Shown here one piece after another: positions 2,616 through 41,485 of a stretch of DNA of 45,431 bases (the stretch's first letter is position 1; each line of letters opens with the position of its first letter). The notes below the pieces were generated by a model. That model was not told where the DNA came from and did not search any database. It saw only the letters and a program-made list of their open reading frames with translations. The stretch spans positions 1 through 45,431 of the forward strand of contig JAFSLL010000044.1 of assembly GCA_017448455.1 (NCBI GenBank), written 5' to 3'. The translations under genes and the position numbers were made by a program. This stretch comes from Oscillospiraceae bacterium. Its GTDB lineage: Bacteria; Bacillota; Clostridia; Oscillospirales; Oscillospiraceae.

Positions 2616-3878
2616 TTATACTCCTCTCAAAGCCCGCTGACCGATATCTTTCCGGCAGTAGGCATTCTCAAATCTCACCTGTGCAGCGACATCATAGGCG
2701 GCGCGGATCGCGTCTTCCAGCGTTTCACCTGTGCCGACACAGCCACAGACACGGCCGCCGTCTGTGACAAGCTTACCGTCCGCCTGCTTTGCACCCGCAA
2801 TATAGACGTGGCTGCGCACAGTTTCGGGAATCTCAAGGAGAAATCCTTTTTCATATTTCTCCGGGTAGCCGTTGGATGCCAGAACAACACAGCAGGCAGA
2901 TTCATCGCGGAAGCGGACTTCCGTATCCGCAAGCCGGCCTTCGGTAACCGCCTGCATGATAGTCAGCAGGTCAGAATCCAGCAGAGGAAGCACTACCTGT
3001 GTTTCCGGATCACCGAACCGGCAGTTGTACTCAATCACTTTCGGGCCGTCTTTGGTTACCATCAGACCAAAGTACAGGCATCCGCGAAAAGTTCTGCCCT
3101 CGGCATTCATTGCCGCAATCGTCGGAAGAAAGATTTCCCGCATACAGCGTTCCGCAACAGCGGGCGTATAGCAGGGATTCGGCGCGACGGTACCCATTCC
3201 GCCGGTGTTGAGACCCTGATCGCCGTCATGGGCGCGCTTGTGATCCATGCTGGAGACCATCGGGACAACGACATTTCCGTCAGTAAAAGCCAAAACCGAG
3301 ACTTCCGGACCTTCCAGAAACTCCTCAATGACGATTTTTGAGCCTGCGTCGCCGAAACGTTTGCCTTCCATCATATCTCTTGCTGCCTGAATGGCTTCAG
3401 CCCTCGTCTGCGCTATGATTACGCCTTTTCCAAGAGCGAGCCCGTCCGCTTTCAAAACAGTCGGGAGCGGAGCGGTCTCCAGGTAACGCAGCGCTTCGTC
3501 CAAACAGGTGAATGTCTCATAGCGCGCGGTTGGAATTCCGTACCGTTTCATCAGGTCTTTTGCAAATACTTTGCTGCCCTCAATGATTGCGGCTTTTTTT
3601 TGCGGTCCAAAGCAGGGAACACCCACTGCCTCCAGTGCATCGACACAGCCAAGTACAAGGGGATCGTCCGGCGTGACAACGGCATAATCTATCTTTTTAT
3701 CCTGCGCGAAAGCGACAATACCGTCAATATCTTTTGCACCGATTGGAACACATGTTGCGTCAGCCGCAATTCCACCGTTTCCGGGCAGCGCATAAAGCTC
3801 TGTTACACACGGATTATCTTTCAGTTTGCGAATAACAGCATGCTCACGCCCGCCGCCGCCTACTACCAGTATCCGCAT
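2616..3878 (-). CDS. purD: Phosphoribosylamine-glycine ligase (GAR synthetase)
   Basis: Joins phosphoribosylamine and glycine with ATP to give GAR, the second step of purine synthesis. The 420-residue length is normal for PurD. It opens with the family N-terminus MRILVVGGGGREHAVIRKL, followed by an ATP-grasp region (LKADGLALGKGVIIA near residue 143) and the metal/ATP residues in VIEYNCRFGDPETQ near 285. The ATG at 3878 has an AAGGAGG site. It lies 14 bases after purH and one base before purL. Because the partner PurF looks ammonia-dependent, PurD would be the enzyme that captures the unstable phosphoribosylamine it makes; this coupling is inference. Confidence 0.97.
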   Translation of the reverse strand: MRILVVGGGGREHAVIRKLKDNPCVTELYALPGNGGIAADATCVPIGAKDIDGIVAFAQDKKIDYAVVTPDDPLVLGCVDALEAVGVPCFGPQKKAAIIEGSKVFAKDLMKRYGIPTARYETFTCLDEALRYLETAPLPTVLKADGLALGKGVIIAQTRAEAIQAARDMMEGKRFGDAGSKIVIEEFLEGPEVSVLAFTDGNVVVPMVSSMDHKRAHDGDQGLNTGGMGTVAPNPCYTPAVAERCMREIFLPTIAAMNAEGRTFRGCLYFGLMVTKDGPKVIEYNCRFGDPETQVVLPLLDSDLLTIMQAVTEGRLADTEVRFRDESACCVVLASNGYPEKYEKGFLLEIPETVRSHVYIAGAKQADGKLVTDGGRVCGCVGTGETLEDAIRAAYDVAAQVRFENAYCRKDIGQRALRGV

Positions 3879-3892
3879 AGTTCGGACCTCCT

Positions 3893-5071
3893 TTAATGGT
3901 GGAACAGGCGCATGCCGGTAAACGCCATCACCATATTATACTTGTCTGCGGTCATGATCACATGATCATCACGAATGGAGCCGCCGGGTTCTGCAATGTA
4001 CTGCACGCCCGATTTCCGCGCGCGTTCCACATTGTCGCCAAAGGGGAAGAAGGCATCGGAGCCGCAGGTAACACCGAACTGCCCGGCAATCCAGGCTTTC
4101 TTTTCTTCAGGAGTGATGGGTTCGGGCTTAACGGCGAAGCGGGTTTGCCATACGCCTTCTGCAAGTACGTCTTCCCATTCGTCGGAAAGATAGACATCAA
4201 TGGCGTTGTCGCGGTCAGGACGGCGGATACCGTCCACAAACTGCAGACCAAGCACTTTCGGATGCTGACGGAGAAGCCAGTTATCTGCTTTGGAACCTGC
4301 AAGTCTTGTGCAGTGAATACGGCTCTGCTGCCCGGCGCCTACGCCGATGGCCTGTCCGTCTTTTACGAAACAGACAGAGTTGGACTGGGTATACTTGAGT
4401 GTGATCAGCGCGATGATCATGTCGCGAACGGCGCTTTCAGGGAGCTCTTTATTGACAGTGACAATGTTCTGCAGCAGCGCCTCATCAATTCGGAAGTTGT
4501 TATGGCCCTGCTCGAAAGTCACACCGAAAACATCCTTGCATTCCTGCAGTGCCGGTACATAGTCCGGGTTGATCTGAACGACATTGTAGTTGCCTTTTTT
4601 CTTGGTTCTCAGGATTTCCAGAGCTTCATCGGTATAAGCCGGGGCGATGACACCGTCAGAGACTTCGTCTTTCAGATACAGGGCGGTAGCGGCATCGCAG
4701 ACTTCACTTAATGCTGCCCAGTCTCCATAGGAACAGAGACGGTCAGCACCGCGCGCGCGGATATAAGCACAGGCGATGGGGGAGAGTTCGGCATCCTTTT
4801 CTACAAAATAGATTTTCCGGTCCGTCTCACTCAAAGGCAGGCCGACAGCGGCGCCAGCCGGAGAGACGTGCTTGAAGGAAGCGGCGGCGGGGAGCCCGGT
4901 GGCTTCCTTCAGCTCCTTCACCAACTGCCAGGAATTCAGCGCGTCGAGGAAATTGATATAGCCGGGACGGCCGTTGAGCACCGTGACGGGCAGTTCGGAA
5001 CCGTCTTTCATATAAATCATTGCGGGTTTCTGGTTGGGGTTACAGCCGTATTTCAGTTCAAAAACCTTCAT
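3893..5071 (-). CDS. purH: AICAR formyltransferase, stand-alone PurH C-terminal domain
   Basis: Transfers a formyl group from 10-formyl-tetrahydrofolate to AICAR, giving FAICAR, the penultimate step to IMP. The protein has 392 residues, whereas the usual bifunctional PurH has about 510-530 and begins with an IMP cyclohydrolase domain. Here only the transformylase part is present: it starts MKVFELKYGCNPNQKPA and carries the catalytic Lys-His in SFKHVSPAGAAVG near residue 66. The missing cyclohydrolase activity is supplied by the PurO-type gene immediately upstream, 11 bases away. The start has a strong AAGGAGGAG site. The symbol purH is used loosely because the protein is only half of classical PurH. 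Confidence 0.93.
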   Translation of the reverse strand: MKVFELKYGCNPNQKPAMIYMKDGSELPVTVLNGRPGYINFLDALNSWQLVKELKEATGLPAAASFKHVSPAGAAVGLPLSETDRKIYFVEKDAELSPIACAYIRARGADRLCSYGDWAALSEVCDAATALYLKDEVSDGVIAPAYTDEALEILRTKKKGNYNVVQINPDYVPALQECKDVFGVTFEQGHNNFRIDEALLQNIVTVNKELPESAVRDMIIALITLKYTQSNSVCFVKDGQAIGVGAGQQSRIHCTRLAGSKADNWLLRQHPKVLGLQFVDGIRRPDRDNAIDVYLSDEWEDVLAEGVWQTRFAVKPEPITPEEKKAWIAGQFGVTCGSDAFFPFGDNVERARKSGVQYIAEPGGSIRDDHVIMTADKYNMVMAFTGMRLFHH

Positions 5072-5082
5072 GTTTCTCCTCC

Positions 5083-5715
5083 TTAATCTCCCAGATGTTT
5101 GTTAAACAGCCTGACTTCTCCCGCAATATTGGTATACAGGGATACTTTATTGTCAGGATTCAACGCGGCCCAGACATCCTCCGGTTCCGGCATGTTGATT
5201 TCCAGTGGCTCGCCTCGGAAGCTCGGAAGAGGGTCTCCGGGGCCTTCGTAGGTGCTGAGGAAATAACCCTTGTCTTCATCACAGCCTTCATAGCAGAAGA
5301 ACTCACGCAAACAGCGCCCGTCGCGCTGTTTCAGGATCGAAAGCTCGAAGCTGCCGTCGGCATGCAGGATAGCGGAGATGCGTGGTGTCCAGTTTGGCCC
5401 GTCCGGCTCATATTCCCGTGTCATCAGTGCCTGACGAAAATCCCCCATCTTGGTAATGGTGTCGGTCTGATCACCGTTGGTCACAATCAAATTGTCTCCA
5501 ACACGCCGCACCGGATGGTAGATGATCAGGCTTGGGTCCTTCATTTTGGAAGCGTCGAACGCCTCCGTGCGGATGCCGTCTTCTGTCAGGGAAAAAATGC
5601 GGTTGCGGCTGTTCTCGCTTCTGCCCATAATAAAGTAGTAAACACGATTCTTTCCAACAGCGATCCCGCGGCCGGGATAAGGATTGTTCTTTAAAAAAGT
5701 CAGGAAATCGGTCAT
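5083..5715 (-). CDS. purO: IMP cyclohydrolase, PurO type
   Basis: Predicted to close the FAICAR ring to IMP, the last step of the pathway. It is 210 residues, begins [20 protein letters not shown] and resembles the archaeal PurO family (Pfam IMP_cyclohyd, PF07826) that also occurs in some Clostridia; it is unrelated to the N-terminal half of classical PurH. Its place between purN and a transformylase-only purH makes the assignment strong. The ATG at 5715 overlaps the purN stop as ATGA and has a GGAG site. A longer reading frame extends upstream to 5784 inside purN, but it lacks a better ribosome site and was not used. Confidence 0.88.
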   Translation of the reverse strand: MTDFLTFLKNNPYPGRGIAVGKNRVYYFIMGRSENSRNRIFSLTEDGIRTEAFDASKMKDPSLIIYHPVRRVGDNLIVTNGDQTDTITKMGDFRQALMTREYEPDGPNWTPRISAILHADGSFELSILKQRDGRCLREFFCYEGCDEDKGYFLSTYEGPGDPLPSFRGEPLEINMPEPEDVWAALNPDNKVSLYTNIAGEVRLFNKHLGD

Positions 5716-6332
5716 GTGCTTTCTCCTTTCATGCGGAGCATCTCCGCGCAGATCTGTTCTGCCGCCTTCGGCAGGATGATCCATTCTGCTTCTTCCATTA
5801 CCCTCCGCTGGAGGAGCTCCGGTGTATCGCCTGGCATGACGGATACCGCCTTCTGCAGGATAATCTCCCCGCCGTCGGGAACTTCGTTCACAAAATGCAC
5901 AGTCGCTCCGGTAATCTTTACGCCATACTGAAGGGCTGCTTCATGAACTTTCAGTCCATACATGCCCTTCCCGCAGAAGGAAGGGATTAGAGCGGGATGA
6001 ACATTGATAATTCGCTTTGAGAAGTGATCTGTAAAAGATGCGCTCAGAATACTCATAAAACCGGCGAGGACAATCAGGTCAATTCCTTTCTCTTCCAGCA
6101 GCGATGTGAGTGCTCTCTCAAATCCTTCCTGCCCGCCGCAGGCAGCGCGGGTCAATACTGCTGCTTCAACACCCGCGTTTTCTGCACGCTTGAGCGCATA
6201 GGCTTTTGGATTGTTGGAAACGACGAGGGCAATTCTGCCGCTCTTCAGCAACCCACTCTCCTGTGCGTCGAGGAGCGCCTGCAGATTGGTTCCGCCGCCG
6301 GAGACCAATACCGCGATCTTAACGCAGTTCAA
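5712..6332 (-). CDS. purN: Phosphoribosylglycinamide formyltransferase
   Basis: Transfers a formyl group from 10-formyl-tetrahydrofolate to GAR (third step of purine synthesis). It is 206 residues, typical for PurN. The N-terminus is the Rossmann-like [18 protein letters not shown]. The catalytic Asn-His lie in [18 protein letters not shown] (about 110-127) and the acidic residue in EVPDGGEII. The start appears to be TTG at 6332, lying 14 bases inside purM, with a GAGGGGGA ribosome site; no ATG at the right place is available. Its stop overlaps the purO start, so translational coupling on both sides is likely. Confidence 0.95.
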
Positions 6333-7344
6333 TCCGGCGATCCCCCTCTCTGATTTCCCCGATCACAACCGTGTCAGGCAGCATTGCCTGTACGGCGGCG
6401 GCCTTTGTCGGGTCAACGACCAGCGTCATGCCGATGCCCATGTTGAAGGTATTGAACATATCCCGCTCTGGGATTTTGCCGCGATCCTGCAGCATGTGGA
6501 AAATAGGCAGTATCGGGATCGCTGCCTTTTCGATAACGGCATAGGCATTTTCCGGAAGGCAGCGAGGCACATTCTCATAAAAACCGCCTCCGGTAATGTG
6601 GCTGATGCCGTGAATCCCGCCTGTTTCAAGGGCTGCGAGAACAGGTCTGACGTAGATCACAGTCGGGGTCAGCAGCGCATCACCAAGGGTCTGAGAGAGT
6701 TCCTCTACGTAAACGCCAAGATCGGCTTTCTCCACGTCGAAGACCTTTCGCACAAGAGAGAAGCCGTTGGAATGAATTCCGCTGGAGGGGAGCCCGAGGA
6801 CTACATCACCGGGCTTAACCTTCAGGGAATTCAGGATTTTTTCCTTATCCACGATCCCGACTGAAAAACCGGCCAAATCGTAGTCATCCGGCTGCATGGT
6901 GCCCGGGTGTTCGGCGGTCTCTCCGCCGATAAGCGCACAGCCTGCCTGTACGCAGCCTTCTGCCACGCCGGCAACCAGGTTCGCGACTTTTTCCGGTTCA
7001 TTCTTCCCGATCGCGATGTAATCCAGAAAGAAGAGGGGTTTGGCTCCGCAGCAGATGATATCGTTAACGCACATGGCAACACAGTCTATGCCGACGGTAT
7101 CGTGTCGGTCCATCAGCTGGGCGATTCGCTGCTTGGTACCGACGCCGTCCGTGCCGGAGACCAGGATCGGCGTCTTCATCCCTTTGAGATCCGGAGCAAA
7201 GAGTCCGCCGAAACCGCCGAGATCAGATACGACGCCCGGTATAATCGTGCGCTGGACGTGTTTTTTCATCAGGCGAACGCCTTCGTAACCTGCTTCAATA
7301 TTCACGCCCGCAGCGGCATAAGCAGCAGAGTGGGAGTTTTCCAT
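6319..7344 (-). CDS. purM: AIR synthetase (phosphoribosylformylglycinamidine cyclo-ligase)
   Basis: ATP-dependent ring closure of FGAM to AIR, the fifth purine step. It is 341 residues, normal for PurM. The N-terminus [18 protein letters not shown] and the motif [15 protein letters not shown] near residue 60 match the PurM superfamily (shared fold with PurL), as do GGETAEHPG near 142 and [11 protein letters not shown] near 180. The ATG at 7344 has a GGAAAGGAG site and lies six bases after purF. The gene order purF-purM-purN is the common one in Firmicutes. Confidence 0.97.
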
Positions 7345-7350
7345 TTCTTC

Positions 7351-8778
7351 TTACTCCTTTCCGTTCCAGCAGTAGGTGCAGATCCGGTCCCGGTCAATCC
7401 CGATGGCTTCCAGCAGTCCTTCGAGTGACTGATACCCGAGAGAATCAAAACCGAGTTTCTCGCAGATCGCGCGGAGCATGCACTTGCCGCGTTCGGTGCC
7501 GGCATCTGTATATTCGTCCAGATGTTTTTCACCCTCTTCGCCTTCCAGTTCCTGGATGGTACGGCGCGCAAGCAGATCCAGGTCTGAGTTGCCGCGGGAA
7601 AAATTCAGATATTTGCAGGCATACATGATCGGCGGGCAGGCAGAGCGCATGTGCACTTCGGCGGCACCGGACTCGTATAGAAAATCGATGGTTCCCTGCA
7701 GCTGCGTTCCGCGGACGATGCTGTCATCCACAAAGAGCAGTTTCTTTCCCTCAATGAGTTCAGGAACCGGGATCTGCTTCATTTTGGCAACCTGATCACG
7801 CACATCCTGATTCGGCGGCATAAAGGAGCGAGGCCAGGTCGGCGTGTATTTGACAAATGGCCTGGCAAAGGGCTTACCGCTGCGATTGGCAAAGCCGATC
7901 GCATGCGGGATGCCGGAATCCGGTACGCCGGCAACATAATCAACTTTCGGGAGATTGCCGCGGCTGATTTCGTCCCGCGCCATGATCTCCCCGTTTCGAT
8001 AACGCATGACCTCTACATTGACGCCTTCATAATTGGAGTTTGGATAGCCGTAATAGGTCCAGAGAAAGGCGCAGATCCGCATCTTGTCCCCGGCTGGGGC
8101 GAGCGTTTCAAAGCCGTCAGAGTTGATCCGGACGATCTCGGCGGGGCCAAGCTCATAGGCGTCTGTATATCCGAGCTTATGGTAGGCAAAGGATTCAAAG
8201 CTGACGCAGCAGCCGTCTTCATTCTTCCCGAGCAGAACGGGCAGTCTGCCGAAACGATCACGTGCGGCGATGATTTCTCCATTGGCTGTCATCAGCAAAA
8301 CCGTCATAGAACCGTCAATAACCGACTGCATATGACGAATACCGGAAACCAGATCCTCCCGTTCATTAATCAGCGCGGCAACGAGCTCTGTGCAATTGAC
8401 TTTACCGGAACCCATCGCCATAAACTGGTGTCCGTGATCTGAAAAATAAGTGTCTACCAACTGTTCGGCATTGTTAATCTGACCAACTGTCGTGATTGCG
8501 TAAATACCGAGGTGCGAACGGACCAGAAGCGGCTGAGGGTCAGAATCGCTGATGCATCCGAAACCGCTGGTGCCGCCTTTGAAATCCGCAAGATCCTTCT
8601 CAAATCTGGTACGGAAGGGAGTATTGGAAATCGAGTGAATCTGCCGCTGAAAGCCATGCTCCGAACTCCAGATTGCCATGCCCGCGTTGCGTGTTCCCAG
8701 ATGACTGTGATAGTCTGTGCCAAAGAAGACGTCCAGTACGACATCACGCCTTGATACGGCGCCGAAGAATCCTCCCAT
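7351..8778 (-). CDS. purF: PurF-type amidophosphoribosyltransferase with degenerate glutaminase site
   Basis: PurF normally hydrolyses glutamine with an N-terminal Cys and channels ammonia to PRPP, giving phosphoribosylamine. This 475-residue protein begins MGGFFGAV: the nucleophilic Cys is Gly. The segment matching the glutaminase His-x-Arg motif reads CIS (75-77), and the usual HNGN position reads TVGQ (97-100). The phosphoribosyltransferase half looks intact: GVPDSGIPHAIGFA near 284 and the PRPP loop LLFVDDSIVRGT (347-358). Cys236, Cys388, Cys467 and Cys470 match the four ligands of the Bacillus-type iron-sulfur cluster. The only sensible start is the ATG at 8778, which shares one base with the purE stop and has a GGAGG site, so a Cys cannot be gained with another start. 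It is probably ammonia-dependent or partnered with a separate glutaminase; this is inference. Confidence 0.9.
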   Translation of the reverse strand: MGGFFGAVSRRDVVLDVFFGTDYHSHLGTRNAGMAIWSSEHGFQRQIHSISNTPFRTRFEKDLADFKGGTSGFGCISDSDPQPLLVRSHLGIYAITTVGQINNAEQLVDTYFSDHGHQFMAMGSGKVNCTELVAALINEREDLVSGIRHMQSVIDGSMTVLLMTANGEIIAARDRFGRLPVLLGKNEDGCCVSFESFAYHKLGYTDAYELGPAEIVRINSDGFETLAPAGDKMRICAFLWTYYGYPNSNYEGVNVEVMRYRNGEIMARDEISRGNLPKVDYVAGVPDSGIPHAIGFANRSGKPFARPFVKYTPTWPRSFMPPNQDVRDQVAKMKQIPVPELIEGKKLLFVDDSIVRGTQLQGTIDFLYESGAAEVHMRSACPPIMYACKYLNFSRGNSDLDLLARRTIQELEGEEGEKHLDEYTDAGTERGKCMLRAICEKLGFDSLGYQSLEGLLEAIGIDRDRICTYCWNGKE

Positions 8779-9275
8779 CAGGCTTCCTCCAGACGTCCGG
8801 CAATGCCGGCATCCTTCGCAAGAACCGCGGCGGTATCTGCCTGCCGTTTTGTGGCAAGGCGTTCTGCCAGTTCCGCGTCCGCTACAGAAAGAATTTCACA
8901 GGCAAGCAGCGCCGCATTCGCGCCGTTGTTGATGCCAACGGTTGCGACAGGAATGCCGGAAGGCATCTGTACAGTGCTCAGCAGCGCGTCCATTCCGTCA
9001 AGAACAGGTCCTTTGCAGGGGATGCCGATGACGGGAAGGGTGGTATTTGCGGCGATGGCTCCGGCCAGGTGTGCTGCCATACCAGCCGCGGCGATGAGGA
9101 CACCGAAACCGTTCGCTCTCGCTTCCAGCGCGAAACTGCGAGCCTGCTCGGGTGTGCGGTGTGCGGAAAACACATGTACTTCAAAAGGAACCTGAAGTTC
9201 CTTCAGAATTGCGGTGGCTTTGCGGATAACAGGCAGATCGCTGTCGCTGCCCATGATAATGCCGATTTTCTTCAT
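8778..9275 (-). CDS. purE: 5-(carboxyamino)imidazole ribonucleotide mutase
   Basis: Converts N5-CAIR to CAIR (class I), or carboxylates AIR directly in class II enzymes. It is 165 residues from the ATG at 9275, which has a GGAG site; a longer frame reaches 9317 but would overlap pyrI without a better ribosome site. It shows GIIMGSDSDLPVIRKA at the N-terminus, SAHRTPEQA near 43 and the Gly/Ala-rich GMAAHLAGAIAANT near 70. No purK is visible in the window, so which class it belongs to cannot be settled here. It is the first purine gene of the superoperon and follows pyrI by only 13 bases. Confidence 0.95.
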   Translation of the reverse strand: MKKIGIIMGSDSDLPVIRKATAILKELQVPFEVHVFSAHRTPEQARSFALEARANGFGVLIAAAGMAAHLAGAIAANTTLPVIGIPCKGPVLDGMDALLSTVQMPSGIPVATVGINNGANAALLACEILSVADAELAERLATKRQADTAAVLAKDAGIAGRLEEA

Positions 9276-9288
9276 AGTTTCTCCTTTT

Positions 9289-9714
9289 TCAGGCGGGACC
9301 ATTTGCCTTGGTCTCACAGTACATACAGCGGTAAACTTTGTTTACGCGGTCTGTCAGGCGAAAAACATGCGGAAGTTCCTGTTCGGTGCTGGTGATACAG
9401 CGGGGATTCTTACAGAAGATGACATTGGTCAGCGTTTCGGGCATATCAATCTTCCGCTTCTCTATGAGCATTCCGTTGCGGATGATGTTGATGCTGACGC
9501 CGGGATCAACATAACCGATCACGTCAAAGTTCACAGGAATATCCGCGTCAATCTTGATGATATCCTTCTTGCCGAGTTTTTCGCTGTGGACATTCTTGAT
9601 GATTGCGACCGAACAGTCCAGCTTGTCCAGTTCCAGCAGTTCATACAGCCTCATCCCACGGCCGGCAGTGATATGGTCAATGACGACCCCGTTGGCAATG
9701 GCGTCGATATTCAT
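9289..9714 (-). CDS. pyrI: Aspartate carbamoyltransferase regulatory chain
   Basis: Regulatory subunit that binds nucleotides and docks onto the PyrB catalytic trimers to form allosteric aspartate transcarbamylase. It is 141 residues (E. coli PyrI is about 153). The N-terminal allosteric domain carries [16 protein letters not shown], and the C-terminal zinc domain has Cys pairs in FCKNPRCIT and YRCMYCETK, the expected four zinc ligands. The start overlaps the pyrB stop as ATGA and has a GGAGG site. A PyrI in a Firmicute indicates the class B, allosteric type of enzyme rather than the PyrB-only type of Bacillus. Confidence 0.97.
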
Positions 9715-10637
9715 AATGTCCCGGCCTCCTTCAGCAGTTTCAGGATCAGTGCCATGCGCATATACTTTCCGTAAAGAACCTGCTTGAAGTAACAGGCGCG
9801 CGGGTCTTCATCGATGGCAACGGAGATCTCATTGACACGGGGCAGAGGATGCATGATGGAGAGGGATTCCTTCGCGTTTTTCAGTTTCTCCGGCGTGAGG
9901 ATATAGCTGTCCTTCAAACGGAGATAGTCCTCTTCATTGAAAAAGCGCTCGCGCTGGACACGGGTCATGTACAGAATGTCCAGTTCCGGCATGGCGCTTT
10001 CGAGATCTGTCGTCTGGACATAGGGAATGCTCCGTTCAGCAAGAATACCTTTCTTCACATAACTCGGCACTTTCAGTTCCTCCGGAGAGATGAAGAAGAA
10101 TTTCAGCCCTTCATAGCGCGAAAGCGCATTGATAAGGGAATGAACCGTGCGGCCGAACTTCAGGTCACCGCAGAAGCCAACCGAGAGCCCATCGAAACCG
10201 CCTTTCTCACGGTAGATGGTCAGCAGGTCCGCCAGCGTCTGGGTCGGGTGATTATGACCGCCGTCACCGGCGTTGATAACAGGGATGCTTGCGTTCATGG
10301 CTGCAACCAGCGGGGCGCCTTCCTTGGGATGCCTCATGGCGATGATATCTGCATAACAGCTGATTACTTTCGCAGTGTCTGCTACGCTTTCCCCTTTGGA
10401 GGCGGAGGAGCTCTGCGCTTCCGAAAAACCGATCACATTCCCGCCCAGTTCGTACATGGCAGCCTCAAAGCTCAGCCTGGTACGGGTAGACGGTTCAAAA
10501 AACAGAGTCGCGAGTTTTTTCCCGCGGCAGCGCTCACAGTAGAACTCGGGATTGGCGATAATGTCGTTCGCCGTATCGATGAGTTCCTGCAGCTCCTCGG
10601 TGGTGAAGTCGAGAATGTCGATCATGCTGCGCGTCAT
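9711..10637 (-). CDS. pyrB: Aspartate carbamoyltransferase catalytic chain
   Basis: Condenses carbamoyl phosphate and aspartate to carbamoyl aspartate, the committed pyrimidine step. It is 308 residues. It has the carbamoyl-phosphate motif [16 protein letters not shown] near residue 45 and the aspartate-side motif [10 protein letters not shown] near 266. The ATG at 10637 (MTRSMIDIL) overlaps the pyrE stop as ATGA and has a GGAGGG site, so it is preferred over the internal Met five codons later. It forms a pair with pyrI. Confidence 0.97.
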
Positions 10638-11284
10638 AGATTCCCTCCGATCCAGCTCTCATCGGAAGGATTGTCACGGAATGCAAGAAGCCGCCGCACA
10701 TCCTCCGGGCGGATGTAACCCTCCTCCGCGGCAACCTGCGCAATGACATCAAAATTGGTAAGACTGCGGTTTGAAACACCGGCCTCTTCCAGCCGTTGAA
10801 GTCCCCTTGCCATGCCGTAAGTGAAGATGCTCGCAATCCCGAGTACTTCGGCGCCTGCTTCCCGCAGGATATTGACAACCTCTACCGCGCTGCCGGCAGT
10901 GGAGATCAGGTCCTCAATGACAACGACTTTCTGCCCGGCATCCAGTCGCCCTTCAATCTGGTTTTTCCGTCCGTGGTCCTTCGCCCCGGAGCGGACATAG
11001 CCCATGGGGAGCCCCAGCAGATGCCCGGTGATCGCCGCATGGGCGATCCCTGCGGTGGAAGTTCCCATCAGAACCTCCGTGTCCGGATAGTATTCCCTTA
11101 TCAGTTCTGCCAATCCCTCTTCCACATCATTGCGTACCTCCGGTGAGGTAAGAGTCAGTCGGTTATCGCAGTATACCGGGCTCTTAATACCGCTTGCCCA
11201 GGTAAACGGTTCCTCCGGCCGGAAGAATACCGCACGGATTTTCAGAAGATCCTTTGCAATGCGGATTTCTCGCTCGTTTGCCAT
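10634..11284 (-). CDS. pyrE: Orotate phosphoribosyltransferase
   Basis: Converts orotate and PRPP to OMP. It is 216 residues, standard for the family. The PRPP-binding loop is [18 protein letters not shown] (about 120-137), and the flexible loop/Lys region [11 protein letters not shown] sits just before it. The start [16 protein letters not shown] lies 21 bases after pyrF. It consumes the same PRPP pool as PurF, encoded further down the same transcript. Confidence 0.96.
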
Positions 11285-11305
11285 GTTGATCAGATCCTTT
11301 CTTCC

Positions 11306-12010
11306 TTATTTGCCGGAGCAGAAATCTCTCCGGCAGCGCTCCCAGGCGGCAACGGGGTCATCCGCCTGTGTGATCGGCCTGCCTACAACGATATAGTCTG
11401 AACCAAGTTCCCTCGCACGGGCAGGTGTTGTTACACGTTTCTGGTCTCCGATATCTCCATCCGCGAAGCGGACCCCCGGTGTTACGGTCAGAAAATGTTC
11501 ACCGCAGACAGCGTGTACCTTGCCTGCTTCCAGAGGAGAGCAGACAACGCCGTCGAGACCCGCGCTTGCCGCGTTTCGAGCATAGGACAGCACAACCTCG
11601 TCCATGGGCTTTTCAATCAGAAGTTCCTTTTGCATGCTCTCCTGATCCGTGCTGGTCAGCTGTGTGACTGCGATCAGCAGAGGACGGCTGCCGTCAACAC
11701 GGGTAAGTCCTTCGAGCGCTGCTTTCATCATCGCCTGCGTTCCGGCGGCGTGCAGGTTCACAATGTCCACGTCCAGCCTGGAAAGGGAACGCATGGCCTT
11801 CCTGACGGTGTTTGGAATGTCATGCAGCTTCAGGTCCAGAAAAATCTGATGACCCCTTGCCTTGAGTTCCCGTACAATCTGCGGCCCCTCGGCATAGTAC
11901 AGTTCCATCCCGATTTTAAGAAACGGCTTTTCGCCGGTAAAACGTTGCAGAAAGGCAAAGGTCTCAGCAGCGTCGGCAAAATCGCAGGCAATAATAACGT
12001 CTTTAGCCAT
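11306..12010 (-). CDS. pyrF: Orotidine 5'-phosphate decarboxylase
   Basis: Decarboxylates OMP to UMP. It is 234 residues, the short bacterial group 1 form. The catalytic Asp-Lys-Asp array is visible in FLDLKLHDIPNTVRKAM (about 58-74), and the phosphate-binding Arg lies in the C-terminal DYIVVGRPIT motif. The ATG at 12010 overlaps the pyrD end by eight bases and has a GGAGGAG site. Confidence 0.97.
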   Translation of the reverse strand: MAKDVIIACDFADAAETFAFLQRFTGEKPFLKIGMELYYAEGPQIVRELKARGHQIFLDLKLHDIPNTVRKAMRSLSRLDVDIVNLHAAGTQAMMKAALEGLTRVDGSRPLLIAVTQLTSTDQESMQKELLIEKPMDEVVLSYARNAASAGLDGVVCSPLEAGKVHAVCGEHFLTVTPGVRFADGDIGDQKRVTTPARARELGSDYIVVGRPITQADDPVAAWERCRRDFCSGK

Positions 12011-12920
12011 GGTGAGCTCCTCCGATGATATCCTGTATATTCACAATGCCCAGCCGATCCATGAGTTTTGGCAGCTCAGCCAGAATGCGCGGACAGGCAT
12101 AGGGATCTTTTAGATTGGCGGAACCGATCTGCACGGCAGTCGCTCCTGCCAGCATCATTTCCATCACATTTTCTGCGCTGCAGATACCGCCAAGGCCAAT
12201 GACCGGGATGTGCACAGCCTGAGAAACCTGCCAGACCATCCGCAGCGCCAAAGGAAAAACAGCAGGACCGGATAGACCGCCGGTAACATTTGCAAGGACC
12301 GGTTTCCGTGTCTTCAGGTCTATCCTCATGGCGAGAACGGTGTTGATCAGTGAGACCGCGTCCGCACCTGCTTCCTCACAGGCGAGGGCGATCTCGGTGA
12401 TATCGCTTACATTTGGCGTGAGCTTCAGAATAAGCGGTTTGTCTGTCACAGCCCTGACAGCGCGGGTGACTGCGGCAGCCGCGGAAGGATCGGTACCAAA
12501 GCTCATGCCGCCGCCGTGAACATTCGGACAGCTGACGTTGACTTCCAGCCAACCGACCTGCTCTTCACGGTTCAGCTTTTCACAGACGGTGACATATTCA
12601 TCGATGGAAAAGCCGCTGACATTCGCGATTACCGGCTTCCGAAACACCGTCCGAAGTTTTGGCAGTTCTTCCTCGATTACCTTCCGCACGCCGGGGTTTT
12701 GCAGCCCGACGGAATTCAGTAAACCTGCCGGCGCTTCGGCAATTCGCGGTGCAGGATTCCCGAAACGGGGCTCCAGTGTTGTACCCTTGAAGGAAAAGGT
12801 CCCCAGACAGTTGATATCGTACAGTTCAGCGTATTCCTGCCCGTATCCGAAGGTGCCGGAGGCCGGAATCAGAGGATTGTCGATTTCAATCCCACAGAGA
12901 TTGACGCTCAGTCTGCCCAT
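12003..12920 (-). CDS. pyrD: Dihydroorotate dehydrogenase B catalytic subunit
   Basis: Oxidises dihydroorotate to orotate with FMN. It is 305 residues and of class 1B, the type that works with PyrK to pass electrons to NAD. The catalytic Cys is in VNVSCPNVHGGG near residue 130, and C-terminal FMN-binding glycines are in IPVIGLGGICSAENV. It overlaps pyrK, its electron-transfer partner, by 13 bases. The start at 12920 (MGRLSVNLCGIEI) has a GGAGGAG site. Confidence 0.96.
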   Translation of the reverse strand: MGRLSVNLCGIEIDNPLIPASGTFGYGQEYAELYDINCLGTFSFKGTTLEPRFGNPAPRIAEAPAGLLNSVGLQNPGVRKVIEEELPKLRTVFRKPVIANVSGFSIDEYVTVCEKLNREEQVGWLEVNVSCPNVHGGGMSFGTDPSAAAAVTRAVRAVTDKPLILKLTPNVSDITEIALACEEAGADAVSLINTVLAMRIDLKTRKPVLANVTGGLSGPAVFPLALRMVWQVSQAVHIPVIGLGGICSAENVMEMMLAGATAVQIGSANLKDPYACPRILAELPKLMDRLGIVNIQDIIGGAHHG

Positions 12921-13648
12921 TCGAGCTCCTCCTTTCGGAACACCGGCCCATCTTTACAGACCCGTTTCGGACCTCGTGCTGTCTGCTTCGTGCAGCCCAT
13001 ACAGGCTCCGAAGCCGCAGCCCATCCGAACGTCAAAGGCGAGCTCACCGCTGGCAGTACTCTTTGCGCAGACTGCTCGAAGCATGGCTTCAGGCCCGCAG
13101 GCGTAGAAAAAACTGTGCGGTCCTTCCATCGCGTCGGTCACAAAGCCGGGAATCCCATAGCTTCCGTCAGCTGTCGTAATAGTGGGGGAGAGCCCGATAG
13201 TCTGGAATGCGTCTTCAAAGAATACATCATCTTTCGTGTTGAAGCCAAGAATGACGGAAGGGGTAACGCCCTCCGCAAGCAGCCGCTTCGCCAGCCCAAA
13301 CAGAGGGGAGAGGCCTGTGCCGCCTCCGATGAGGAGAGGGGCGTTTCCAGCGACGGAACGCTCAAAGCCATTTCCCAGGCCGGTCAGAAGCTCAAGCTCT
13401 GTTCCGACGGGCAGGGTATGCAGCAGTTCAGTACCGCTTCCTACACGCTCAACCAGCAGTGTGATGCTGCCGTTTTCCTGATCGCAGACCGAAAAGGGAC
13501 GTCGCAGAAAAAATCCGGGCAGAGCCACATTCACAAACTGGCCGGGGCGGAAAGGTTCTTCCAATGCCTCCGCAGGGCTTAAAAGCAGGAGATTGACGCG
13601 GGCAGTCAACGGACGGTTTTCCTGAAGTCGAAACTGCGCTTTTTTCAT
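12908..13648 (-). CDS. pyrK: Dihydroorotate dehydrogenase B electron-transfer subunit
   Basis: FAD and [2Fe-2S] protein that moves electrons from PyrD to NAD. It is 246 residues from the ATG at 13648, which has a GGAGG site and overlaps the stop of the leader ORF as ATGA; a frame extending nine codons upstream was not used. It has the FAD motif RRPFSVCDQ, the NAD motif LIGGGTGLSPLFGLA, and a C-terminal cluster with Cys in GCGFGACMGC plus a later Cys in RVCKDGP, the usual 2Fe-2S pattern. It is the first recognised enzyme gene of the superoperon. Confidence 0.96.
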   Translation of the reverse strand: MKKAQFRLQENRPLTARVNLLLLSPAEALEEPFRPGQFVNVALPGFFLRRPFSVCDQENGSITLLVERVGSGTELLHTLPVGTELELLTGLGNGFERSVAGNAPLLIGGGTGLSPLFGLAKRLLAEGVTPSVILGFNTKDDVFFEDAFQTIGLSPTITTADGSYGIPGFVTDAMEGPHSFFYACGPEAMLRAVCAKSTASGELAFDVRMGCGFGACMGCTKQTARGPKRVCKDGPVFRKEELEWAD

Positions 13649-13830
13649 GTCCGCACCCTCCGTTCTGAAAAACAAAAACCCGGTTTCATGCTGTGCAAAG
13701 ATGCAGTGCAGAAACCGGGCGTGCTGATATATGGACTTGCGGGCGGGCAGATGAAGACTGTACGACCATATGCAATGAAGGTTTCAGATCCCTCATCGCG
13801 GTATGTTCTCATCTGAGCGTACAGAAGCAT
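13645..13830 (-). CDS. Putative 61-codon leader peptide of the pyr-pur superoperon
   Basis: A short reading frame starting MLLYAQMRTYRDEG at an ATG at 13830 with a GGGAGG site seven bases upstream. It reads straight through the attenuator hairpin and ends with a TGA that overlaps the pyrK ATG (ATGA). The good ribosome site and exact coupling argue that it is translated. The embedded terminator recalls the E. coli pyrBI leader, in which ribosomes following RNA polymerase prevent hairpin formation. No homologue is recognised and the peptide itself may have no function. Confidence 0.5.
   Translation of the reverse strand: MLLYAQMRTYRDEGSETFIAYGRTVFICPPASPYISTPGFCTASLHSMKPGFCFSERRVRT
13665..13719 (-). 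terminator. Intrinsic terminator/attenuator ahead of pyrK
   Basis: On the minus strand CCCGGTTTC (13711-13719) pairs perfectly with GAAACCGGG (13679-13687), and further pairing in the loop is possible. The hairpin is followed by the T-rich tail TTTTTGTTTTT. It lies between the promoter and pyrK, inside the leader ORF, so it should act as a conditional terminator of the operon. Confidence 0.8.
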
Positions 13831-14031: not shown

Positions 14032-16845
14032 TTAACGGGCTTTCTTCCGTGTATACAACCACAGGGCAAGGAGCGCCAGATAGGCTGTAACAGCGATATA
14101 CTGCCAGCGCTGCCAGCGAATCTGCACTTCCACGGAAGACCCGTCTGCATGACGCTGGTTGTTGACGCGAGAAGAGGAAGCTTCGGAATACAGGATCTCC
14201 TTCGCGGCGCGCTGCATCAGGAGAACCATTTCGTCGGACTCTCTGTCGGCTGTCGGGAAGGCGTTGCCCACATAGAGCCATTGACTGTTTCCAGCAAGCA
14301 GGCCTTGCTTCATGTTCATATAACGGTAGCCGAAGGTGCCCGCGTAATCTGTCAGCGCATTCCCGTGGAGTCCCCATTCATTTCTGAGAACTTCCGTCAT
14401 CAGACCGTAATGCCCTCCGGCCCATATGTCACCGATTCGGTTATACGAAGTCATGACGCCGTCAGCGCCGCCCTTGGTGATCGCAAGCTCAAAAGGCTTG
14501 AGATACAGTTCCCAGATTGCCTGCTCTCCGGCATAGGTGCACAGCCCGTTATAGGGATCATTGTTGCGGAAGTTCCCACGGTCGCCGCGATTGGTGTCCT
14601 GATCGTTCAGTGCAAAGTGTTTGATGCGATGCGAAAGACCTTTCTCCCTGGCTGCAGCACATACAGAGACGGCGTAGTTTCCCGCCAGGATTCCGTCTTC
14701 GCTGTAATACTCGTAGTTCCTCCCACCGAAAGGCGTACGGTGGGTGTCCATCGCCGGCGCGTACCAGCCGTGAATATTGTTCAGCAGCGCTTCTTCTGCG
14801 ATACAGTTGCCAATCTCTGAAGCGATTTCCGTCGACCAGGTTGCTGCCTGGATCGGATAGCAGGGGAAGAGCGTCCCCACGCGGAAGCCCATCGGACTGT
14901 CGGAGGTGTTGGACTGCTGCTTTTGGATGCTTTCAATGGCAGGACTCCTGCCGCTTCCCGCAGAGACCAGGTAATACAGCTCTTCCCTTGTCATACACTG
15001 TACCGTCTCCATCCAAAGCGGGTCATCATAATCCAAAGGTTTGCCGTTTTGATCAAAAAGCTCAGAGAAGGTATGACCGGCGCCGCTCGCGGTGACCGGT
15101 ACTCCGGAAAGTCCTGAAGCGCCTGGACAGTCGGTGGAGAGAATCGCTGTTTTCCTTTCCGGGGTCAGGGTCATGCTTGCGTCTCCAGCGGTGCCGCCGT
15201 CACCGTATACCGAGGGCCAGGTGCCCTCCCAGTCAGCCCGGGAGAGAAGCGAAAGATCTTCTGGACGGGAACTGTATTCCGCTGTTTCAAAGCGGTTGCT
15301 TATGACCGCACCGGTTTCACTGCGGTCAAACTTCTCATCCAGCGGGAGAATGACCGTTGCTTCAAGCACGGGCGTATGCGCGTCTCTGGACGCCATGAAC
15401 AGATACTCTCCCGCTTCGGCGAGATAGGTTTGGGCTCCATACGCGTCATAGGACGCAAGAAGCCGCCGCTCGACATCGATTGTCAGCGACTCGCTCATGC
15501 CGGGCTCCAGAACTCTTGTTTTGGCAAAGCCCACCAGATCCGCGGCACTTTTCTCGACACCTGTTTTACGGTCATAGTCGGTGTAGGGCTTTCGGAGATA
15601 GAGTTCCACCACGTCGCGACCGGCCATGCTGCCGGTGTTGGTTACCGTCACAGAGATGTTGAATCCGTTCTCCGACGCTGCAAGCTTCAGATCCGACCAT
15701 TGAAAAGACGTGTAGCTGAGACCGTAGCCGAAGGGATAGACAACGTTTTCCCGGTACCATTGCTCTCCTTCATCCAGCGCTCGGGTTTCATAGTACCGGT
15801 AGCCGACATAGATTCCCTCCGCATAGGCGACATAGGCGGCTGTGGTGATCTTCCCTTCGTCCACATAACGGTTGTCACCGTAGTTCTGCATGGCAGGTGC
15901 CGAGAGAAGGTCGCGTGCCCAGGTGTCGGGAAGCCTTCCTTCGGGACAGAGCTCTCCCGTCAGCATCTTTGCTACTGCTGTCATACCGTGCTGACCGGTC
16001 CCGCCGATCCAGAGCGCGGCATCGATTCCTGCCTCCTCCAAAAAGCCGCACTCAAAGGCATTCAGCGTGTTCAAGACCACGATGACCTTTTGAAAGCTGG
16101 CATCCAGAACCTCCTGCAGAAGGGCAAGTTCCTCTTCGGTCGGCTCCAGATAATGCCGGTCATCGCCTTCATGGAAATCCAGCATGGAGGTCGGCAAATC
16201 CTGTCCTTCTCCGCCGGATCGGGCAAGCACCACGATGGCGGCGTCGGCATAATCCCGGAAGCTTGCCTTCAGTTCATCGCTGTAGCGCTCTATCTCGATC
16301 TCATTGATGGAATAGCCGTAGCTGCGGCTGCCCTTGAGGCCATAGTGCCGCCCGTTCATGTCGGTGCCTTTGCCGCGCCGATAGCCCTGTTTCGCCATCT
16401 TCTCATAAAAGTCGCGCAGAGCGGGATTCACAACGAAGCCTTCCTCTTCCAGTGCGGTATAGAGGTCTGTGATCTTCTCCCGGTTCCCTTCGCCGGAGCC
16501 GGTTCCACCGTAAACGGGATTCACCGAGGCAGTGCCAAAGACCGAGATGCGGCGTTCGGAAGGATCAAGAGGAAGCGTGCCGTTGTTTTCAAGCAGCACC
16601 GTGCCGGCCGCCTGTGTCTGAATGGCGATTTCCTTTGAATACGCAGCGGCTTCCTCCATGTTTGCGAAACGGGATGAATAATAGGTTACCGCTTCAGGAT
16701 CAGGTATCTCAGGATCCCAGTCCAGCAGAAAATGACTGACAAAATTCGGCGCGTTGGACCAGCCAAAGCATATGCCCATCGTGATGGTGGCGAGAATAAG
16801 GATCACACTGAGAAGGCTGAATCCGAGTTTTTTCAGTTTTCCCAT
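14032..16845 (-). CDS. Membrane-anchored GH3 glycosidase with permuted domains (second copy)
   Basis: Predicted beta-glucosidase/xylosidase-type glycoside hydrolase family 3 enzyme of 937 residues. The usual family order is reversed: sandwich motifs come first (LLENNGTLPL near 85, YPFGYGLSYT near 375), then the TIM barrel with KHFALNDQDTNRG (from about 742) and the nucleophile Asp in NALTDYAG (about 833). A hydrophobic segment near residues 5-28 and another near 915-932 followed by RKKAR suggest membrane insertion at both ends with the enzyme outside. The start at 16845 (MGKLKKLGF) has a GGAGG site; a frame to 16929 overlaps the previous gene and was rejected. It is last in the operon, 25 bases after the esterase gene. 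Substrate specificity cannot be told. Confidence 0.9.
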   Translation of the reverse strand: MGKLKKLGFSLLSVILILATITMGICFGWSNAPNFVSHFLLDWDPEIPDPEAVTYYSSRFANMEEAAAYSKEIAIQTQAAGTVLLENNGTLPLDPSERRISVFGTASVNPVYGGTGSGEGNREKITDLYTALEEEGFVVNPALRDFYEKMAKQGYRRGKGTDMNGRHYGLKGSRSYGYSINEIEIERYSDELKASFRDYADAAIVVLARSGGEGQDLPTSMLDFHEGDDRHYLEPTEEELALLQEVLDASFQKVIVVLNTLNAFECGFLEEAGIDAALWIGGTGQHGMTAVAKMLTGELCPEGRLPDTWARDLLSAPAMQNYGDNRYVDEGKITTAAYVAYAEGIYVGYRYYETRALDEGEQWYRENVVYPFGYGLSYTSFQWSDLKLAASENGFNISVTVTNTGSMAGRDVVELYLRKPYTDYDRKTGVEKSAADLVGFAKTRVLEPGMSESLTIDVERRLLASYDAYGAQTYLAEAGEYLFMASRDAHTPVLEATVILPLDEKFDRSETGAVISNRFETAEYSSRPEDLSLLSRADWEGTWPSVYGDGGTAGDASMTLTPERKTAILSTDCPGASGLSGVPVTASGAGHTFSELFDQNGKPLDYDDPLWMETVQCMTREELYYLVSAGSGRSPAIESIQKQQSNTSDSPMGFRVGTLFPCYPIQAATWSTEIASEIGNCIAEEALLNNIHGWYAPAMDTHRTPFGGRNYEYYSEDGILAGNYAVSVCAAAREKGLSHRIKHFALNDQDTNRGDRGNFRNNDPYNGLCTYAGEQAIWELYLKPFELAITKGGADGVMTSYNRIGDIWAGGHYGLMTEVLRNEWGLHGNALTDYAGTFGYRYMNMKQGLLAGNSQWLYVGNAFPTADRESDEMVLLMQRAAKEILYSEASSSRVNNQRHADGSSVEVQIRWQRWQYIAVTAYLALLALWLYTRKKAR

Positions 16846-16870
16846 TGCCATTCCTCCTGCCAATGAATGA

Positions 16871-17929
16871 TCAGTTTGCCGGTTCAAAGCTCTCCCAGAG
16901 GAAGGTTTCCACTTCAGCCAGAAGCTCATCCGTGTACAGCCTGTCGTCAGCGTGTCTGCACTTCGGAACCAGCTTCAGGCTTACATCTTCTCCGTTCGCC
17001 TTCAGAGCCTCAAAGAGCTCTACAGACTGCAGGTGAGATACCGTGATGTCCGCGTCTCCGTGGACCAGCAGAGATCTCATCCTAGGGTTCCCGTTCTCCC
17101 GTCGCTCCGCGCGATGCAGGGGACTGGCCTCGATCTTCTCCTCATCGCCCCATTCGGCAAAGGCTTTTCTCATCCAGAATTCTTCCAGTGTGTCATATTC
17201 ACCGAGCACGTCGTTAGACCAGCTGTTGGCGACGGTGGAAATCCAGGGAATGAGTCCCTCCTCCACAAAATTGCCGCGCAGCGTCACAAAGTCAATGCAG
17301 CCGTAATAGTCCACCAGCGCGTCAAAGGCCGGCATGGGAAAGCGCTGTTCTTCCGTCTCGCCGAGACTGAGCGTATCGGCATAGGCATCCGGGGCGGAGA
17401 GCGCAGTCATAGTCGCCAGATATCCGCCTGCCGATTCACCCCAGACCGCGATTCGCTCCGCGTCATAACCATACGCTTCCGCGTTGTGTGCCAGGAACCG
17501 CACCGCTGCTTTCACATCGCGGACGGCTGCGGGATAAGCCGCTTCTGTAGACAGCCGATAGTTGATGCTGGCACAGGCAAAACCGTGATCGCGAAAATAA
17601 CGATACATGAACTGCGGCTGGCGTGCCTGAGAATCGTTAAAGGCGAAACCGCCGCCGTGGATCATCACAAAGAGTGGTGGCGGCTCTGGCGTGTCCGGCA
17701 CATAGAGGTCCAGATACTGCGCCTCGGAATCGTCGGCATAGACCAAGCGCTCGTAACTTCTGCCACCGCTCCAGTCGGCGGATTCTTCCAGCGTCAGTGT
17801 CGGCGCCGTAATGTTGCACCAGACCTGACGGACAGTGTAGTGGTTGGCAGCGAGGATCAGAACCAGAATTGCCAGAATTCCGAGCAGGATATAACGAGCA
17901 GCCTTGTGTTTTTGTTTTTCCTTACCCAT
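16871..17929 (-). CDS. Membrane-anchored alpha/beta hydrolase (esterase, HSL-like)
   Basis: A 352-residue carboxylesterase-type enzyme. After a basic N-terminus there is one membrane segment (about 12-29, ARYILLGILAILVLILAA), then an alpha/beta-hydrolase domain with the oxyanion motif IHGGGFAF (about 90), the nucleophile elbow GESAGG (Ser166), a probable Asp in LLVHGDADITVS and a probable His in PKCRHADD. The signature matches the hormone-sensitive-lipase/BD-FAE-like group, often deacetylases or lipid esterases. Its place between an extracellular esterase-like gene and a GH3 gene suggests removal of acyl groups from plant or microbial polysaccharide outside the cell; that is inference. Confidence 0.85.
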   Translation of the reverse strand: MGKEKQKHKAARYILLGILAILVLILAANHYTVRQVWCNITAPTLTLEESADWSGGRSYERLVYADDSEAQYLDLYVPDTPEPPPLFVMIHGGGFAFNDSQARQPQFMYRYFRDHGFACASINYRLSTEAAYPAAVRDVKAAVRFLAHNAEAYGYDAERIAVWGESAGGYLATMTALSAPDAYADTLSLGETEEQRFPMPAFDALVDYYGCIDFVTLRGNFVEEGLIPWISTVANSWSNDVLGEYDTLEEFWMRKAFAEWGDEEKIEASPLHRAERRENGNPRMRSLLVHGDADITVSHLQSVELFEALKANGEDVSLKLVPKCRHADDRLYTDELLAEVETFLWESFEPAN

Positions 17930-41188: not shown

Positions 41189-41485
41189 GTGGCTTTTGAC
41201 AAGGCTGCACTAGTCGGGGAGCCAGCGGTGCCCTGTAACCTGCAATCCGCTACAGCAGGGACGAATTCCCATCTTAGGATATGTTCTGTGTCGATTGGCC
41301 CCGGTAAGCAGCGTTGAAGATCCGGTCTCGCGCAACGGGAACCCGTGAACCATGTCAGGCGGGGAACCGAGCAGCATTAAGCGGGACATCCCGTGTGCCG
41401 TGAGGGCGCCGGGTCCGAGCCGGCTGCCGGGGTACGGATGTAGCGCATTTTTCAACGGTGGGTGTGCAGTCTTGTCAAGAGCCAT
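41189..41485 (+). ncRNA. ffs: Signal recognition particle RNA, long Gram-positive type
   Basis: About 297 nt. The ends pair over about 20 bp (GGCTTTTGACAAGGCTGCAC with GTGCAGTCTTGTCAAGAGCC). The Alu domain is seen in GGTGCCCTGTAACCTGC and the S domain in GTCAGGCGGGGAACCGAGCAGC, with a GGAA loop and the following AUUAAGC. It binds Ffh to target membrane and secreted proteins. A T6 run follows at 41489-41494 and acts with the terminal helix as a terminator, close to the dnaX start. Confidence 0.95.

Follow-up and report, generated by a model that had tools for sequence, protein, structure and literature searches.

A PurF clade without the glutaminase nucleophile in gut bacteria, and its likely use of ammonia in purine synthesis

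How does a bacterial purine operon start its pathway when its PurF lacks the nucleophile for using glutamine? The first committed purine step is taught as glutamine-dependent, and the question is raised by one open reading frame (ORF) in a 45,431-nucleotide stretch of Oscillospiraceae bacterium DNA (contig JAFSLL010000044.1 of assembly GCA_017448455.1, positions 1 to 45,431), here called the window. A preliminary description, made from the letters of the sequence, had read this ORF as a PurF with Gly in place of the N-terminal Cys. Both the ORF and the substitution are real, and the gene lies on the minus strand (the description named none).

7351..8778, minus strand: apparently glutaminase-dead PurF (hereafter Gly-type), 475 aa, starting MGGFFG
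8773..8775, minus strand: codon 2, Gly, at the place of the nucleophilic Cys in PurF

We find the substitution to be general in a clade of relatives. We also consider it likely, with a probability of about 0.68, that the Gly-type is a PurF-derived 5-phosphoribosylamine (PRA) synthase that has lost its glutaminase function and takes ammonia directly, replacing the Cys-containing PurF (Cys-type) or coexisting with it according to lineage.

The closest match of the window protein by sequence search is Bacillus subtilis PurF (1ao0, E 3.9e-44) and its predicted fold is that of PurF overall, while its score against the curated PurF model TIGR01134 (174.9 bits) lies below the cut-off of 350. The motif that binds 5-phosphoribosyl-1-pyrophosphate (PRPP) is present as VDDSIVRGT, with D351, D352 and I354-T358 invariant in a 68-sequence alignment. 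Judged by sequence, Cys 236, 388, 467 and 470, at positions that we take to be the iron-sulfur (Fe-S) ligands of B. subtilis PurF, are likewise present and conserved in the clade. The glutamine pocket is different. In the alignment with Cys-type proteins, on which our statements about the pocket rest, Gly stands at position 2, QHRGQ is replaced by SHLGT, HNGN by TVGQ, and D-TE by N128-x-T-E, and about eight residues are deleted, taking away the RYxTxG (Arg-Tyr-x-Thr) loop of HVRYxTxG and leaving CI there. The preliminary description was thus correct about TVGQ, the PRPP loop and the four cysteines; it had also read the usual His-x-Arg as Cys-Ile-Ser, and those residues are indeed altered, as part of the deletion that removes the loop. 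The glutaminase half looks dead. The Gly-type has a conserved stretch at residues ~405-435 (LEGEEGxxHLxEYxD..TERG) that the aligned Cys-type PurF lack.

The position of codon 2 depends on the start, which the preliminary description had fixed by overlap with purE. This holds: the start overlaps the purE stop (TGATG), GGAGGAA lies immediately upstream, and an ORF scan of the gene found no in-frame ATG, GTG or TTG upstream of the start. In two relatives (L049 and L064; L and G numbers are our handles for loci and genomes) a stop codon stands immediately before the Gly-type start, leaving no room there for a hidden Cys or propeptide. A hidden upstream Cys or propeptide is ruled out by these observations taken together.

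At least 582 relatives were confirmed in a scan of contigs, and Cys-types may be among them. We analysed the best 80 of these loci, whose proteins are 72-87% identical to the window protein. By their titles they are chiefly of Ruminococcaceae/Oscillospiraceae type, with Frisingicoccus, Adlercreutzia, Slackia and Eggerthellales in addition; the clade spans Firmicutes (Oscillospiraceae-type) and Actinobacteria (the Adlercreutzia family, which we take to be Eggerthellaceae). Position 2 is Gly in 138, Ser in 11, Ala in 2 and Cys in none of 151 aligned clade rows, in which two genes are counted twice (L080 = L097, L085 = L103); among the 149 distinct sequences the counts are 137, 11, 1 and 0. This set omits L109 (its genome is in as L093), L162 and L164-L168, whose genes were already included, and two fragments, L197 and L198; L158-L161 do not belong to the Gly-type. 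The Gly2 homologues form a clade, as the preliminary description had proposed to check, separated in one FastTree run from 36 Cys-type rows (35 distinct) by a very long branch (2.45) with moderate split support (0.817). The Cys-type rows were chosen by a Cys-containing motif, so that Cys in 36/36 is by construction; the pattern missed L136, L139, L141, L142, L151 and L155, the last of which carries Ser, and an incorrect start had been used in cutting L138. L155 itself (G083:C13, in a genome with a Frisingicoccus locus) is a third PurF-like gene, near canonical at 409 bits. It has Ser where the nucleophile would stand (RSGLFAMY), and the Cys appears to have been lost here in an independent, second event.

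Could the gene simply be a pseudogene, or the product of a sequencing error or a wrong start? Nothing speaks for this except the missing Cys itself. The frame is full-length, and pN/pS (nonsynonymous relative to synonymous change) against ten close relatives is far below 1 in both domains (N-domain 0.10-0.25, C-domain 0.10-0.17), which indicates purifying selection on both. Mean pairwise identity among 120 clade members is 70% in the N-domain and 78% in the C-domain, compared with 56% and 62% among the 36 Cys-type rows. These figures argue that the glutaminase-dead half is not decaying. D22, Y23, H24, H26 and N128 are identical in 120/120 clade members, and C75-I-S-D is also retained nearly without exception. 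With the Cys absent from all 149 distinct homologues and the start fixed by the upstream stops in two relatives, error, local mutation or pseudogene is refuted by the clade-wide absence and the purifying selection, and we give such explanations practically no chance. On this evidence the gene is alive.

The Gly-type gene lies within a run of genes on the minus strand, pyr genes upstream, followed by purE, Gly-type, purM, purN, a PurO-like gene, the 5-aminoimidazole-4-carboxamide ribonucleotide (AICAR) formyltransferase gene and purD:

9289..13675, minus strand: pyrI, pyrB, pyrE, pyrF, pyrD and pyrK, upstream in the same direction (Pfam matches, E up to 1e-8, except pyrE, named from its sequence)
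8778..9317, minus strand: purE (PF00731 AIRC, 204 bits), its stop overlapping the Gly-type start
6319..7344, minus strand: purM (TIGR00878, 422 bits)
5712..6332, minus strand: purN (TIGR00639, 195 bits)
5083..5784, minus strand: IMP (inosine monophosphate) cyclohydrolase-like gene with a PurO-type domain (PF07826, 157 bits; NCBIfam purO below cut-off)
3893..5071, minus strand: stand-alone AICAR formyltransferase (NF005492, 699 bits)
2616..3878, minus strand: purD, the PRA-consuming enzyme (TIGR00877, 520 bits)

The preliminary description had called the operon otherwise complete; the gene is in a purine operon, and PurL is encoded elsewhere in the same genome, outside it. The final IMP steps fall to two separate proteins (3893-5784, minus strand): the AICAR formyltransferase stands alone, and the cyclohydrolase resembles PurO without reaching the archaeal PurO cut-off. 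Across the 80 loci, the reference-set genes purE before and purM after flank the Gly-type at 61 (a Cys-type in between being allowed), a Cys-type PurF is on the same locus at 12, and no reference-set pur genes occur at another count of 12, two of these with a purC-like ORF upstream.

Is the Gly-type the only PurF in its genome? No Cys-type PurF was found in the window's own genome (G000), a metagenome-assembled genome (MAG) that is 92% complete with 7.3% contamination. The same holds for six of its seven closest sampled relatives (G061-G064, G066 and G067); the seventh, G065, has both types, as have many others, so that the coexistence which the preliminary description had raised varies with the genome. 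The window's family was sampled with 61 genomes: a Cys-type occurs in 36 and a Gly-type in 25, the two together in 10; 15 are Gly only, and 10 have neither type. Gly-type was assigned in this sample by score band (126-195 bits) and coverage, and 19 of the 25 were confirmed by sequence, in part through loci L020 and L029 of what seem to be the same genomes. A further two, G033 and G039, gave matches of 73% and 79% in the larger sample described below, and the assignment of G011, G023, G050 and G056 rests on band and coverage. From agreeing coordinates, G064 and G004 seem to be one genome, as do G071 and G022. Genomes were called for 30 of the 80 loci, and 12 of these are Gly only.

A larger sample was drawn from the order, which we take to be Oscillospirales (the window's genome plus others at least 95% complete; 396 genomes). 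It holds 94 genomes with a Gly-type and no second match, 135 with a Gly-type and further matches, 142 without Gly-type and 25 without any match. For G693, G864, G619, G722 and G757, only four of the first five or six candidates were scored, and 89 is the safer figure than 94; 20 of the remaining Gly-single genomes, searched again with every candidate scored, all stayed single. Among 79 Adlercreutzia-family genomes, 10 are Gly only, about 48 have both and 21 are without Gly-type; here and in the order, a second match was counted as Cys-type because it scored weakly. In a wider sample of the phylum, at least 382 of 398 genomes have a match above the PurF cut-off (rows under it were partly resolved), which makes Gly-only genomes rare there.

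Gly-only genomes usually hold the rest of the pathway. PurD was counted in the family sample, in the genomes called for the 30 loci and in the Adlercreutzia-family Gly-only genomes; over 26 distinct Gly-only genomes, PurD was found in 23 and PurL (by its glutaminase domain) in 24. In the family sample PurD occurs in 12/15 Gly-only, 34/36 Cys-type and 1/10 'neither' genomes, the PurL glutaminase domain also being found in 1/10 of the last; the Gly-only genomes without PurD are 63-82% complete. At ≥90% completeness and ≤5% contamination the contrast is 7/7 Gly-only versus 0/5 'neither'. PurD is present in 12/12 Gly-only genomes from the 30-locus set (one being G004 again) and in 10/10 from the Adlercreutzia family (G085 is counted in both sets). 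Two genomes, G501 (~1.5 Mb) and G524 (~1.1 Mb), carry the cluster purE-purC-Gly-purM-purN-purO-AICAR formyltransferase-purD-purL, interrupted by a single additional ORF ahead of purO; a second PurF was found in neither.

The proposed mechanism runs as follows. The C-terminal half, with its PRPP site and Fe-S ligands, would still join ammonia to PRPP, and the N-terminal half would retain its fold with the glutamine pocket dismantled and rebuilt. The loop deletion should open the old glutamine mouth, and ammonia, taken from the medium or released by catabolism, may enter, perhaps by that route. The product, PRA, would pass to PurD, which consumes PRA. In some lineages the Gly-type would replace PurF and in others coexist with the Cys-type, presumably serving high versus low ammonia; the donor, the entry path and this division of labour are what we infer from the pattern. 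According to PMC3261824, Escherichia coli PurF with Cys1 replaced loses glutamine use and keeps ammonia use. PMC12017579 states that yeast PPAT can use ambient ammonia and cites a proposal that external ammonia enters from the glutamine site.

Several observations weigh against an ammonia-using PRA synthase. Both types occur together in 10/25 Gly-bearing genomes of the window's family, in 18 of the genomes of the 30 loci, in about 48/58 Gly-bearing Adlercreutzia-family genomes and in G065, a close relative (82% identical), and 135/229 Gly-bearing genomes of the order have a further match; where a Cys-type is also present, the Gly-type may have another role. Several genomes are incomplete MAGs, which leaves absence of a Cys-type unproven for any single one. 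PurD and PurL were not found in G429 (92% complete), the main exception, whose Ser2 member (L162, G429:C114) lies on a contig that ends just past the gene, nor in G018 (82% complete), where purM, a PurO-like gene and the AICAR formyltransferase gene come after the Gly-type; a PurL match was not found in G088. In a more divergent group of 28 (53-59% identical), the reference pur genes are missing from the surrounding 1.5 kb in 24, contig ends having shortened a few of these flanks. Within the protein, the PRPP closing loop is substituted by KYTPTW-RSF and the former glutamine pocket has new invariants (D22, Y23, H24 and N128), changes that could point to a different amine or ligand.

A rival idea is that the protein is no PRA synthase at all, being instead a PRPP-binding paralogue with another amine donor or a regulatory role that sits in purine operons for control. 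Coexistence with a Cys-type in many genomes, the new invariant residues in both halves and the lack of a found PurD or PurL in G429 all agree with it, as do the stand-alone loci, which have no pur neighbours and before which no purine or PRPP riboswitch reached the gathering score (11 and 20 loci; none in the window either). Such a paralogue would leave without a first step the pathways of the 26 distinct genomes in which no other PurF was found, yet PurD was found in 23 and PurL in 24, and in G501 and G524 the gene stands where purF would be expected in a full cluster. We therefore judge it unlikely; the preliminary description's 'other job' is weakened by the same co-occurrence and stays alive above all where the two types coexist and in G429. 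The same description had offered a borrowed glutaminase. In that arrangement a PRA synthase would be fed ammonia by a separate glutaminase docking on the N-domain, whose selection and strongly conserved residues are as a docking face would have them, and the Cys-type on the same locus at 12/80 could give ammonia in a mixed tetramer. Gly-only genomes show no Cys-type for such pairing, and no companion amidase recurs beside the Gly-type gene at the loci examined (34 mostly stand-alone and 20 divergent), where no neighbour cluster is common to more than 3/34 or 3/20. These counts exclude the Gly-type itself, opposite-strand ORFs over it and pur genes; neighbouring ORFs were called mechanically, longest first, and pur genes alone were labelled. 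This split form of PurF seems to us distinctly improbable, although a glutaminase encoded away from the gene might still play the part, and free ammonia is the best supported of the description's three options. A bolder version of the ammonia-using synthase is possible and rather doubtful: the dead domain may be a new module and no relic, its former pocket, with D22-Y23-H24, C75-I-S-D and N128, serving to bind ammonium (or to sense nitrogen) and to supply the redesigned PRPP loop. A dedicated ammonia:PRPP enzyme of this sort would have spread between Firmicutes and Actinobacteria of animal guts and allowed entire lineages to lose the glutamine-dependent PurF.

Some further observations were made along the way. 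At L091 a glycine riboswitch lies well downstream of the Gly-type gene. G559 (G559:C1:132025-134900) has a Gly-type in two pieces separated by ~1.3 kb, which cover overlapping parts of the query (1-264 and 206-475), together with a weaker Cys-type-like match. In the ~1.1 Mb genome G524 of the Adlercreutzia-family sample (L117/L167, G524:C14), TGA is seemingly read as Trp; 5/12 ORFs checked contain in-frame TGA, and the Gly-type has three, two at near-universal Trp positions of homologues. Elsewhere in the window, 14032-16929 (minus strand) encodes a permuted glycoside hydrolase of family 3, in which the C-terminal domain (110-377) precedes the N-terminal domain (682-863), and 41205-41469 (plus strand) is a large bacterial signal recognition particle RNA (206 bits) with a tRNA near it on the opposite strand.

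A gut-bacterial clade running the first purine step without a glutaminase would, if true, tie purine supply directly to ammonia, and glutamine analogues and flux models may then misjudge these organisms at that step. Annotation by TIGR01134 only would miss the window protein, and the 25 Gly-type matches of its family are also under the cut-off.

Free ammonia is used where relatives use glutamine by carbamoyl phosphate synthetase I, AsnA and ammonia-dependent NadE; these are different enzymes and folds, and the likeness is one of analogy alone. Compared with B. subtilis-type PurF (EC 2.4.2.14), which has the nucleophilic Cys and the glutamine-binding loop, the Gly-type is without both, has a different PRPP flexible loop and carries the extra conserved stretch at ~405-435. 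Its nearest likeness, by description, is crenarchaeal PurF', which PMC3261824 presents as a PurF paralogue near purine genes without the N-terminal Cys (many have Ala or Val) and with ammonia-dependent activity offered in 2011 as a possibility to test. The Gly-type shares the lost Cys and the linkage to pur genes, so the kind of enzyme has precedent in archaea, and the 'unusual' nitrogen entry of the preliminary description has to be tempered for a type that is also common in its order. According to the same paper, each Crenarchaeon studied has a Cys-type PurF; the Gly-type is often the sole PurF found, coexistence being absent from the window's own genome as searched and seen in many genomes of the clade. 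Among the papers listed in searches of the open-access literature we recognised none on the bacterial clade, subscription papers being mostly outside the scope of these searches. The novelty lies in a clade of bacteria that, beside the rest of the pathway, often have the glutaminase-less form as the sole PurF found, and there the guess made for PurF' would become testable without a found Cys-type to confuse the result.
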